Source: Clostridia bacterium
Lineage (GTDB): Bacteria > Bacillota > Clostridia > Oscillospirales > Acutalibacteraceae
Length of the DNA: 64,000 nucleotides
Assembly (NCBI GenBank): GCA_024404115.1
Contig: JAKSQM010000004.1
Coordinates: 124,001-188,000, forward strand
Reading direction: 5' to 3'
The position numbers and the translations under genes are program-made. Of this stretch, positions 35,916 to 41,720 are shown in pieces. The notes below the pieces were generated by a model. It was not told the origin of the DNA. It saw only the letters and a program-made list of their open reading frames with translations, and searched no databases. The first letter of the stretch is position 1. Each line of letters begins with the position of its first letter.

Positions 35916-38483
35916 TTAACCATTTTTTATAGCATCACCAAAGAGAATTTCGGGTGCATCATCCTTCATTTTTTTGAGGACTTCACTGATTTTTCCGTGA
36001 ACTCTGTCAACTTCTTCTTCAAATTCTCTTGCAGACATTCTCAAAACACCTGCCCTCACTGCAGAAAGCTGAATAAGTCCGTCAGATGTTACAACTCGTA
36101 CTCTTTCGTTTTTGCCAATTTCTGAAATGAGCTTTTCAATATAAACATCGCCAAGCTCCCTTTCTTTTGTGAAAACAACGTGGATGTTGTGAAAATCAAA
36201 CCGTTTTGTTTGATTGCCTGGGACTTTATAAGCGTCAAAAACAAGCACAACATTATTTTTAGTGAATGCCGCATAGTTGCAAAGAATGTGCATAAGTCGT
36301 TCTCTTGCAGATTCAAGGCTGATTTCTGCCATCTGCTTCAAATCATCCCACGCAAAAATAACATTGTAGCCGTCAACAATAACATATTGCTTGCGTATTT
36401 CAAAGTCGATTACACGCTCTGTCTGCTTCTGTGGCTGATTTTTGGGGCGATAAAGGTCATACTTGACCTTGCCAAATTCACGCTCCATAATAGCCTCTAA
36501 CTCTTTGTCATCTATGTGCAGATTTCGGTGATTGACCTGCGCAGAATATGGCTTCTCTTTTTTTATACAGGATTCAAGGTGCATATATTCGTGAACTTTG
36601 TTCCACTTAACATTGAATCCGCCGCCGTGAGCGCAGAAAACTGAATCGGGAGTGTTTTCAAGGTCAGCTTCGGGGTTATAAGCAAATTCTTCAATAACTT
36701 GCTGTGCGTTATGACATTCGCCATAGCCTGCAACCTCACAAAAAAGTCTGCCTCGACCGCCTGTGTATGAGGCAACCTCTGCCGCATAGCCGTTAAGGCT
36801 TGTAACAGGTGCGGTACCCTTTAAAAGGGACATTTCACCTGAGTCCTCCGGGGAGTCAAAGGTGCCTGATCTCATTCTTATATCGTTTATGGCTCTGCCA
36901 AGCTGTTCGGGCGGAACTTCAAGGCGGAAGTTGTAGTATGGCTCAAGGAGCTTGCTTTCGGCATTCATAAGACCGTGGCGGATTGCACGGTATGTTGCCT
37001 GCCTGAAATCGCCGCCCTCTGTATGTTTAATATGTGCTCTGCCAGCAGCAAGGGTGATTTTCATATCTGTAATGGGTGAACCTGTGAGAACGCCTAAATG
37101 CTGTTTCTCTTTAAGGTGCATCATAATAAGTCGCTGCCAGTTTCTGTCAAGGCTATCCTCACTGCAAAGAGTTTCTAACTTTATGCCACTGCCAACGGGC
37201 AATGGCTCCATAATAAGGTGAACCTCGGCATAGTGGCGAAGCGGTTCATAATGCCCCACACCCTCAACACGGTTAGTGATTGTTTCTTTATATAGCACAC
37301 GGCCGCTGTCGATTTCAACATCAACAGAGAAACGCTCAGAAATAAGACTTTTCAGAATTTCGGTCTGCACCTCGCCCATAAGTCCCACATGAATTTCCTG
37401 TAAATGGCTGTTCCACGTGATTTTAAGCTGAGGGTCTTCCTCCTCCAACATACGAAGCTTTGGCAGCATTACCTGCGGGTCGCAACCCTTTGGCAAAACA
37501 ATTCTGTAATTCATAACAGGTTCAAGAACAGCCTTGGATGTGGATGCTTCAAAGCCAAGACCTTGCCCGTTTTTAAGAGAATCAAGACCTGCAACGGCGC
37601 AGATCTCGCCTGCGCAGACTTCATCTGCCGTCTGATATTTTGCCCCAGAGTAAATTCTTATCTGACCAATTTTTTCTTCTTTTTCGCCAGTGTTTATAGA
37701 ATCACGCACCCTTATTTTGCCACCTGTTACTTTTATATGCACAAGTCGGGTGCTTTGTTCACGGGTAATTTTAAATGCCTTTGCACCGAATGTGTCGGGG
37801 TAGCTGTTGGGGGTGATGAATCTGTCAAGGGAGTCAAGGAAATATTCGATGCCGTCAATTTTTAATCCAGAGCCAAAAAAGCAGGGGAAAACAAGACGGC
37901 TTTTAATAGCCTTTGAAATATCTTCGTCAGAGATTTCTCCGTCAGAAAGATATTTTTCAAGTAAATCCTCTTTGCACATGGCAACAGCTTCGTTTCGCTC
38001 ATCTTCATTTTCTGGCGAAAAATCAACACAACCCTCGCCAAGCTCACTTGTCAGCTCGTCCATAAGCTCCTGACGGCTCTTTCGTGCAAAATCCATTTTG
38101 GTAATAAAAATAAACGCAGGTATCCCGTAATGAGAAAGAAGTTTCCACAGAGTTCTTGTGTGAGCCTGAACACCGTCAATGCCGCTGATAACCATAACCG
38201 CATAGTCAAGCACACGCAAAGTGCGCTCCGTTTCGGCAGAGAAATCCACATGACCTGGTGTATCAAGCAAAGTGAACTGTGAATTTTTATAATTCAGCAC
38301 AGCCTGACTTGAAAAAATAGTGATTCCACGCTCTTTTTCAAGGGAATGGGTGTCAAGCGCTGTGTCGCCATTGTCAACCCTGCCAAGCTTTCTGACACTG
38401 CCCGTTACATAAAGCATAGCCTCTGCAAGGGTGGTTTTGCCAGCGTCAACATGGGCAAGTATTCCTATAACAGATTTTTTCAT
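35916..38483 (-). CDS. TetM/EF-G-like ribosomal GTPase fused to a YacP/Rae1-type NYN nuclease domain
   Basis: 855 residues. Residues 1-650 are an EF-G/TetM-type translation GTPase: P-loop AHVDAGKTT (10-18), RGITIFSS, DTPGHVDF, TKMD, then domain II and domains III-V (KLRMLEEEDPQLKI, GHYEPLRHYAEV, LLEPYYNFRLEVP). After a linker, 700-855 is a NYN domain with D704-G-Y-N707, D750 (VFDAY), D779 (LGDVYIE) and D801 (TSDGLIQ). That is the acidic set of YacP, the B. subtilis A-site mRNA endonuclease Rae1. ATG at 38483 after GGGGA. It probably enters the ribosomal A site and cuts mRNA there; tetracycline protection is possible but unproven. It is monocistronic. Confidence 0.88.
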   Translation of the reverse strand: MKKSVIGILAHVDAGKTTLAEAMLYVTGSVRKLGRVDNGDTALDTHSLEKERGITIFSSQAVLNYKNSQFTLLDTPGHVDFSAETERTLRVLDYAVMVISGIDGVQAHTRTLWKLLSHYGIPAFIFITKMDFARKSRQELMDELTSELGEGCVDFSPENEDERNEAVAMCKEDLLEKYLSDGEISDEDISKAIKSRLVFPCFFGSGLKIDGIEYFLDSLDRFITPNSYPDTFGAKAFKITREQSTRLVHIKVTGGKIRVRDSINTGEKEEKIGQIRIYSGAKYQTADEVCAGEICAVAGLDSLKNGQGLGFEASTSKAVLEPVMNYRIVLPKGCDPQVMLPKLRMLEEEDPQLKITWNSHLQEIHVGLMGEVQTEILKSLISERFSVDVEIDSGRVLYKETITNRVEGVGHYEPLRHYAEVHLIMEPLPVGSGIKLETLCSEDSLDRNWQRLIMMHLKEKQHLGVLTGSPITDMKITLAAGRAHIKHTEGGDFRQATYRAIRHGLMNAESKLLEPYYNFRLEVPPEQLGRAINDIRMRSGTFDSPEDSGEMSLLKGTAPVTSLNGYAAEVASYTGGRGRLFCEVAGYGECHNAQQVIEEFAYNPEADLENTPDSVFCAHGGGFNVKWNKVHEYMHLESCIKKEKPYSAQVNHRNLHIDDKELEAIMEREFGKVKYDLYRPKNQPQKQTERVIDFEIRKQYVIVDGYNVIFAWDDLKQMAEISLESARERLMHILCNYAAFTKNNVVLVFDAYKVPGNQTKRFDFHNIHVVFTKERELGDVYIEKLISEIGKNERVRVVTSDGLIQLSAVRAGVLRMSAREFEEEVDRVHGKISEVLKKMKDDAPEILFGDAIKNG

Positions 38484-38513: not shown

Positions 38514-38542
38514 ATTATAATGCTTTTTCAAAAAAATTGCAA
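38514..38542 (-). promoter_or_regulatory. Promoter of the GTPase-NYN fusion gene
   Basis: Minus strand TTGCAA (38537-38542), 17-base spacer, TATAAT (38514-38519). The leader is about 25 bases, too short for the attenuator peptides known upstream of tet(M). Confidence 0.75.
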
Positions 38543-39563: not shown

Positions 39564-41597
39564 TTATATATACCACAGCCAGCCAAAGAGCAGAATAATA
39601 ATCAGCCATTGTGCGAAGCTGTATTTAACAGTTACATTACATTTAGCGGTTAAGGTGTTGCCGTATTTATCTTTAGCGGTGCAGATAACAGTTGCAGGGG
39701 TTTTGGTGCGTCTGTAGCCTAAAACTGAACCGTCTGGTGCGGCAATAACATAATCTGGGTCGTTTGAGTGGTATGTAATTTCGTATTCAACACCACTGCC
39801 AATGTCAACCGAAACAGGGATTTTTGCAATATCAAGATAGTTAATGGTAACATCCTTTGCAGAGAAGCTCTTTAAACCGTCTTTTGGAATTTCTTTAACA
39901 GTTATTTGGAAGCTGACGGATTTGCCGCCATAGGTTATTGTAACATTTTTTGCGCCAGCGGTGTCAAGCTTCGGAGCATTGCAGGCGAAACCACTTGAAA
40001 TAATAACCTTTTCACCGTTTTTAAGTGTGGCAAGAAGCGAAAGACCGTCTGTTGAGAAAGTGCTTCCTTTGTAATACTCTGTTTTTAATGGAAGCGTTTT
40101 AATTGAAATGGAAGAAACATCTTTGCCTGTTGTTAAAAAAGCTTTTACAGGAACATTTCCATAGGAGCCTGTGCTTTGCCATTTGCTGTTGGCGGATTTA
40201 TAAAAGCTCTGCCCGTCTGATGAAGCATAAGAAATGGTAAGACCGCTTTCTCTGATAGGCTCGCCCTCACACGGAATGTAGCAGGCATCATCATAGCAAT
40301 AAAGCTTTGCCACAACAGAGAAATAACTGCCTTTCTTTACCGAATAAGTATTGTTGAAATTCACCATATAATACCCCTGCTCAACAGAAGAAACGGTCTG
40401 CGTTTCGCAAAGCTTTCCGCTTGCGGGGTCAGATTTATCTTTTAAATCGGTATAAAGAGAAATCTGTGCCTTATACCAGCACGGTGCATTGAGAAGAATT
40501 GATGCGGCGCTGATAACTGCATTTTTACGGGCAGGGAAAATATTTGCCATATATGCTTCTTTGTTTTCACATGGAAGTATGTCGGAGCAATATACACCGT
40601 CATACTGATAAATTTCGTCATAACTGCCTGCGGGCACAACCCTTATCTGCGTAAATTCATCGAATGTCATATCGTAGAAAGAGAGATAGAAATAGCCGTT
40701 TGTTCCCCAGTCGGTACCCCAGCTGTTTTTAACAATCCATGCACCGTTGCCCTCTGGCTTTACAGAGAAATTATCGGCAGAAAAGTTGTCATCCCAGCCA
40801 ACAATTGTAACCATATGGTTGGATTCATAATAGCTTGGGCAGTAATAGCAGTAGCCGTTTTTTGAGTTTTTATAATAGCGGTTTACATCCGCACAGTAGC
40901 AGGCGGTAACACTTCCGCTTTCAAGGATAGCTTTTTTAACATTATTAACGCTTGTGTCATAGCTGGTTTCAGATGAAACAAGCTGATAATTACATTTGTA
41001 TTTGGAGGAGGTGCTGTATCCCGATTTCGCTTTTTCATCAGAATAAGGAAAATCTTTTTCTTTTGCAAAGCCAGAACCTCTTGCAAGGGTGGCGTCTGCA
41101 ATAAAAGAGTTACCGCCAAAATCAAACGGATCTTTAACTGAGAGCGTGTCTTCGTCTGCATCTCATAAAATATCGCTTTTTGTGTGCCCTGTGAACCATG
41201 CAAGATGACCCTCTGAAAGGTCAACTGTGTTTTTCTTTTCAAAGCCCTGCATAATAAGGCTTGTTTCAGCGGCGGAGCAATATGCAAATGCCCAGCAGGC
41301 ACCGTAAGGCTCCTGATTTTTAACGCTGGTTACATAGCCGAAATCCCTTGAATCATATTTTGCAGGGTAATTAGCATTATATATTTCATCGGCAGTGAAT
41401 TCTGCCACGGAGCGGTTGCGTGGGATAGGCTTGCCATATTCATCATAATAAACGAGCTTTGATACTTCACCGTTTGTTATGATTTCACTTCTTTTGGCAG
41501 GTGAAGAATTTTTGCTTTCTGCCTGCACAGATACATTGGATATGAATGGAATAATTATTAAAACAGCCATAAAAAATGATGTAAACTTTTTCAACAT
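39564..41597 (-). pseudogene. Secreted C1-family (papain-like) cysteine peptidase interrupted by one in-frame TGA
   Basis: One frame of 677 sense codons broken only by TGA at codon 145 (41163-41165). Signal peptide 1-26; catalytic Cys101 (YGACWAF) is before the stop, His261 (NHMVTIVGW) and Asn291 (VKNSWG) after it. Then a Big_3 Ig-like domain (about 440-520), a second strand-rich domain and the hydrophobic tail FAQWLIIILLFGWLWYI. Everything else is intact, so the change is recent, a sequencing error or a read-through site. The first product alone would be 144 residues and inactive. It has its own promoter and GGAGTGG ribosome site. Confidence 0.85.
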
Positions 41598-41619
41598 TTT
41601 TACCACTCCAATCAAGTTA

Positions 41620-41648
41620 ATTTTATTCTGTTTTTCACAATTTGTCAA
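41620..41648 (-). promoter_or_regulatory. Promoter of the C1 peptidase gene
   Basis: Minus strand TTGACA (41643-41648), 17-base spacer, TAAAAT (41620-41625). Confidence 0.75.
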
Positions 41649-41649
41649 T

Positions 41650-41685
41650 AAAAAAATAGCAGAGAAACATTTCTGCTTCTCTGCT
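41650..41685 (-). terminator. Terminator after the 39-residue peptide gene
   Basis: Minus strand AGCAGAGAA (41677-41685) pairs with TTCTCTGCT (41658-41666), then ATTTTTTTATT. Confidence 0.85.
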
Positions 41686-41720
41686 GTGGATTCATTGCCC
41701 GACAATGCTGTTAAATCAGA

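Follow-up and report, generated by a model that had tools for sequence, protein, structure and literature searches.

The gene at positions 35,916–38,483 (minus strand) of a 64,000-nucleotide stretch of the genome of a Clostridia gut bacterium (hereafter the window) encodes one polypeptide in which an EF-G/TetM-type GTPase is followed by a disordered tether and a YacP/Rae1-type NYN domain. With moderate confidence, we read this protein as a Rae1-type mRNA endonuclease that is tethered to its own ribosome-binding GTPase and serves housekeeping quality control or mRNA decay in Clostridia, and not as acquired tetracycline resistance. The architecture is already known; the present analysis adds its spread, the pattern of replacement, its conservation and a motif in the tether.

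Gene, domains and tether

The open reading frame begins with ATG and runs for 855 residues with zero internal stops; a TTG upstream of this ATG, as an alternative start, would give 871 residues. Pfam recognizes GTP_EFTU at residues 6–223 (E = 1.9e-49), EF-G_D2 at 245–307, EFG_III at 321–391, EFG_IV at 394–508, EFG_C at 511–593 and NYN_YacP at 701–842 (E = 1.3e-45; 155.9 bits against a curated cut-off of 24.6). The features are as follows.

35916–38483, minus strand: whole fused gene, 855 amino acids, single open frame
37815–38468, minus strand: G domain, residues 6–223 (Pfam GTP_EFTU), with motifs AHVDAGKTT, GITIF, DTPGH and TKMD
36960–37304, minus strand: EF-G domain IV, residues 394–508 (Pfam EFG_IV)
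37002–37028, minus strand: domain IV tip loop KHTEGGDFR, residues 486–494, replacing PVSTPADFR of Tet proteins (alignments)
36705–36953, minus strand: EF-G domain V, residues 511–593 (Pfam EFG_C)
36573–36704, minus strand: C-terminal extension of the GTPase, residues 594–637, SVFCxHGxGFxVxW...EYMH (alignments)
36390–36572, minus strand: tether, residues 638–698, predicted disordered (low pLDDT; flanks of the motif poorly conserved)
36468–36518, minus strand: tether motif, residues 656–672, HIDDKELEAIMEREFGK (pattern [LIV]xxI[FMILY])
35958–36383, minus strand: NYN_YacP (Rae1-type) endoribonuclease domain, residues 701–842 (Pfam, chains 5mq8/5mq9, kept residues)
38514–38542, minus strand: sigma-A-like promoter match TTGCAA-17-TATAAT (consensus match)

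The uninterrupted frame and the Pfam matches to both domains bear out the claim of a first-pass annotation that the two activities share one polypeptide. That annotation had assigned residues 1–650 to the GTPase and 700–855 to the NYN domain; the EF-G/TetM type is upheld but its boundary lies nearer 637, and the NYN assignment holds for 701–842 but the tail past 842 is poorly conserved. Nor did we find a frameshift, or a start within the linker, that would yield two proteins: in all 96 fused loci sampled from other genomes, which were retrieved and checked, both domains lie inside one open reading frame. The stretch from residue 630 to 705 has just two start-like codons, ATG 634 and ATG 666; residue 666 is Met in 13 of the 47 fused rows of our alignment, so initiation at that point is not conserved. 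The four G-domain motifs are kept across fused and unfused rows, and EF-G domain IV is the most conserved domain of the protein (mean column conservation 0.81 over 26 rows).

By sequence, the NYN part is related to two solved chains of Bacillus subtilis YacP, 5mq8 and 5mq9 (E = 6.9e-25). D704, N707, D750, D779 and D801, which had been listed as kept and which we take to have catalytic roles in the NYN domain of Rae1/YacP, are identical in 47/47 fused rows, the window protein included. An alignment of 49 stand-alone NYN rows has 27 columns conserved at 90% or more; the 56 fused rows retain 21 of these at the 90% level, and the window protein has 24 of them. The six weaker columns lie at 776–778 (three) and 813–820 (three). 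The window domain aligns to Pfam positions 1–144 of 166, with the last 22 unmatched, so that the end of Rae1 that holds R166P, given as a loss-of-function change in the available text of PMC6613710, lacks a clear counterpart in the fusion. Residue 752, two residues past the active-site Asp750, is Tyr in 98% of the 56 fused NYN rows and His in 39 of the 49 free ones.

An AlphaFold model based on a 26-row alignment (mean pLDDT 76.7, pTM 0.49) folds both ends of the protein, with pLDDT block means of 59–91 over residues 701–840. A NYN fold in the structure prediction is thus supported, the YacP chains matching by sequence. The best 50 Foldseek matches listed comprise EF-G-type and TetM chains at TM scores of about 0.3–0.4, a loose overall superposition, and no NYN protein is among them; it is thus sequence that supports the NYN assignment.

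Between the two folded ends, pLDDT falls below 50 at residues 642–695, where a helix (658–670) is drawn at low confidence. The tether is 61 residues long in the window protein and 59–119 in the 47 fused rows. All 47 carry the pattern [LIV]xxI[FMILY] at 656–672 and none carries it elsewhere in the tether; a Glu precedes it in 45 of them. The motif is absent from unfused relatives, which terminate shortly past the YMH of the C-terminal extension. By eye, we recognized no known family in it.

The tetracycline-resistance label

By Pfam and by its solved relatives, the GTPase half is a five-domain EF-G-like translational GTPase, as expected of a TetM/TetO-type protein. One reading, suggested in the available text of Atkinson 2015 (PMC4342817), is a ribosome protection protein of the tetracycline type that has an accessory RNase, in which the GTPase would dislodge the drug and the NYN domain would aid resistance. 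TetO and TetM are indeed the best-scoring solved relatives (4.1e-81 and 6.5e-78), and in the GTPase tree the family is sister to the four Tet rows, with two EF-G-type rows as the sole outgroup. We nonetheless hold this reading to be very unlikely. Pro-509 of TetM, which the available text of a review places directly in the tetracycline site (PMC8161019), is kept in 4/4 Tet rows but corresponds to Lys486 in 46/47 fused and 20/21 unfused rows, and the NCBIfam Tet equivalog model NF012153 scores the protein at 424.4 bits, below its cut-off of 775. Together these speak against a TetM-like way of displacing the drug, and the drug-tolerance branch of the first-pass annotation is not supported. The domain IV tip as a whole reads HIKHTEGGDFR in the fusion as against YYSPVSTPADFR in the four Tet rows, and YHEVDSSEMAFK in the EF-G of the same genome; His487 and Thr488 occur in 68/68 fused and unfused rows, where the four Tet proteins have Val and Ser.

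The leader also counts against resistance, as no attenuator-like element was found in it. The promoter-like match TTGCAA-17-TATAAT ends 30 bases 5′ of the ATG (three such sites occur in the region, against 1.1 expected), and an Rfam scan found no family at cut-off, in agreement with the earlier description of a short leader that lacks the tet(M) attenuator. A regulatory RNA was considered and rejected, the sole Rfam match being sub-threshold and lying within the gene.

Judged from these residues and scores, the label ‘Tet’ is doubtful for the fusion. The expectation that database names would miss the architecture is not supported: Atkinson 2015 described it, and NCBI has ‘translation factor GTPase family protein’ for one fused relative. 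An unfused protein on the Ligilactobacillus salivarius plasmid pR1, which NCBI names a Tet protein, is encoded next to rpsN, with HTVGGDFR where the Tet loop would be. In Clostridia, similarity to tetracycline protection genes may go together with a missing drug-displacing loop and a function in translation quality control, and resistance may be overcalled where genes are named from similarity alone.

Spread and history in Clostridia

We searched a class sample of 293 Clostridia genomes for NYN_YacP (E 0.001) and for the GTPase (E 1e-40 or better), which occur in 192 and 123 genomes, respectively. The fusion is present in 96 genomes; 8 have fragmentary or contig-edge reading frames and were kept apart from the fused count, 19 have an unfused GTPase (13 of them with a NYN elsewhere and 6 without any), 76 have a NYN only and 94 have neither. 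At least one of the NYN-only genomes holds a fusion cut by a contig end. In 92 of the 96 fused genomes the fusion is the only NYN_YacP found at E 0.001, so that free Rae1 seems to have been replaced by it; a second copy occurs in the other four (G408, G462, G496 and G572). The window genome, 84% complete, has one copy. Across the 189 non-fused genomes, GTPase and NYN are weakly associated (Fisher p = 0.056, kinship ignored). In a phylum sample, NYN_YacP is matched in 163 of 299 genomes; among the genomes listed each has one match except G205, which has two, and among the matches listed the reading frames are mostly of 167–221 residues, with a few of 249–349 and one group of 863–914.

To reconstruct the history, we built a GTPase tree of 74 rows by a quick method (SH-aLRT support only, midpoint root) and a NYN tree of 107 rows, in which two loci were entered twice (L058/L171 and L060/L160). 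Four loci were left out of all alignments, one masked (L095), two at contig ends (L096 and L097) and one distant (L098), and a fifth, with its frame split in two (L166), was left out of the trees; alignment A2 comprises 22 of the 26 rows of alignment A1. In the GTPase tree, 20 unfused Clostridia proteins form one clade (support 95), and the fused rows group together (84) except for one at the base (L163). The unfused L. salivarius protein sits inside the fused side (94) and so reads as a loss of the NYN domain; the label ‘fused’ needs two changes on the 74 rows. In the NYN tree, all 54 fused-labelled rows form one clade (100/98) together with four rows labelled stand-alone, three of which are really fused or contig-cut (L060, L067 and L068), leaving one true separate NYN (L057, genome G497); the remaining 49 stand-alone rows lie outside. 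Genome G497, which has this NYN of the fused clade on its own, has its GTPase (L151) in the unfused clade, which looks like fission or replacement. The window’s own family is mixed, with two fused genomes (G432 and G530) and two with an unfused GTPase and no NYN (G466 and G576). On these sequences, one fusion with a few later losses would be the simplest account of both trees.

Both halves are kept by selection, as their sequences show. In five close pairs, all of them fused (the unfused pair L137/L138 was left out), dN/dS is 0.036–0.203 for the GTPase part and 0.016–0.262 for the NYN part, with the parts split by fraction of length and synonymous change near saturation in one pair.

A single origin, which fits both trees, could also mean that two independent factors were joined once and kept without mechanical coupling. 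The functions are separable, as no NYN is found in 6 of the 19 unfused-GTPase genomes and 76 of the 293 have a NYN but no GTPase of this kind, which counts against coupling. We still regard a fusion of convenience as improbable: of the 123 genomes with the GTPase, 96 have it in fused form, besides the eight fragmentary cases set apart, and the tether motif is kept in every fused row.

The surroundings of the gene vary. In the window its neighbours encode an alpha/beta hydrolase and a class V aminotransferase, presumably SerC; a papain-like peptidase frame (39564–41705, minus strand; named by eye) appears to be broken by an in-frame TGA near 41163, which probably marks a decayed gene or a mistake in the assembly. 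When the genes around the fusion in the 96 loci were grouped by blastp, without annotation, no family lay within 300 bases of it in more than five loci, and a conserved operon was rejected. Among 72,556 plasmid records, two contain a match over 80% or more of the fusion protein, one of them a 518-kb Monoglobus replicon. This rarity on plasmids and the lack of fixed neighbours fit a mostly chromosomal housekeeping gene. The fusion occurs in two records titled ‘Bacteriophage sp.’, one of them labelled UNVERIFIED; a phage origin was rejected, as none of 49 IMG/VR loci matches past residue 646.

A YlmH-family RNA-binding protein, of a family tied to ribosome quality control, adjoins the fused gene on the same strand in four loci (L075, L076, L077 and L092), overlapping it by about 13 bases in two loci, and lies 1.7 kb off in a fifth (L083). 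These are 5 of 29 clustered loci, with the identity given by Pfam for two of the five. A model of the five YlmH proteins matched at none of 96 other sampled loci, 92 of which have at least 900 bases downstream. Because four of the five loci (all except L092) group together in the GTPase tree, the adjacency is only a lead.

Action on the ribosome and known relatives

Rae1 of B. subtilis is described as a ribosomal A-site endoribonuclease and is proposed to enter stalled ribosomes, in the available text of PMC6613710, PMC12320835 and PMC10100781. A role on the ribosome, which the first-pass annotation had put forward, is likely for the fusion, a single polypeptide that joins the GTPase to an intact Rae1-type active site. 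Its ribosome binding, cleavage and targets are presumptive, and we infer translation-dependent A-site mRNA cleavage for the window NYN domain. In the proposed order of events, the GTPase half would bind the factor site of paused ribosomes with an accessible A site, with domain IV inserted into that site. On GTP hydrolysis, domain IV would withdraw or the factor would leave; the tethered NYN would then move into the A site left free, as has been suggested for B. subtilis Rae1, and the mRNA would be cut. The ribosome with its cleaved mRNA would be passed on to rescue.

Domain IV and the NYN domain exclude each other spatially in the A site, so that a sequential, two-step action must be assumed, and this steric conflict is the main difficulty for the A-site model. 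The earlier wording, that the enzyme enters the A site and cuts, is therefore plausible only with two steps, the two domains competing for one place. Stretched out, the 61-residue tether could reach from the factor site as far as the A site or the mRNA entry.

The same conflict lends some weight to a ribosome-guided nuclease with a target outside the A site, such as mRNA in the entry channel, mRNA between collided ribosomes, or rRNA or tRNA precursors in assembly. The NYN domain must lie somewhere else for as long as domain IV occupies the A site, a tether of 59–119 residues would reach well past that site, and RNase ability towards rRNA was named as a point to test in the available text of Atkinson 2015 (PMC4342817). 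We consider such a target unlikely, because the NYN domain keeps most of the signature of Rae1, whose reported site of action is the A site (available text of PMC6613710 and PMC12320835).

We return to the tethered A-site nuclease as the preferred reading. A more elaborate version, offered tentatively, is a two-stroke rescue enzyme in which the KHT-tipped domain IV probes or clears the A site and the tethered nuclease then cuts the mRNA; this GTP-gated pathway would have replaced the diffusible Rae1, and the tether motif would dock a further partner. A Rae1–GTPase lineage in which a free form is mostly not seen makes directly testable how Rae1 finds ribosomes and whether it needs a helper.

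Four known systems can be set beside the fusion. TetM, TetO, TetS and TetW share its EF-G-type GTPase, at about 31–32% identity over residues 1–587 or 1–604, but have another domain IV tip loop and another C-terminal extension, and the fusion adds the tether and the NYN domain. Closer are the unfused relatives from other Clostridia and the L. salivarius plasmid pR1, whose GTPase is about 40–50% identical, with HTxGGDFR in 21/21 rows and a similar C-terminal extension, but without tether or NYN domain.

Rae1/YacP of B. subtilis (5mq8 and 5mq9) has in common with the fusion a NYN domain with the same active-site residues. Whereas Rae1 is a free, single-domain protein, the NYN of the fusion is the C-terminal domain of a GTPase in one open reading frame; the end of the Rae1 model is unmatched in the fusion, and Tyr752 stands where most free NYN domains have His.

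A literature search, whose coverage took in few subscription papers and not the main Rae1 ones, found PMC4342817 as the only paper describing the fusion and no experimental study of it. In its available text, Atkinson 2015 (PMC4342817) reports the acquisition of a YacP-like NYN RNase domain by Tet proteins from ten species of Clostridiales. The window protein has the same two parts, a Tet/EF-G-like GTPase and a YacP-like NYN, in the same taxonomic group, and so is of this type as judged by description; the ten species of that account compare with 96 of 293 genomes in the present sample.
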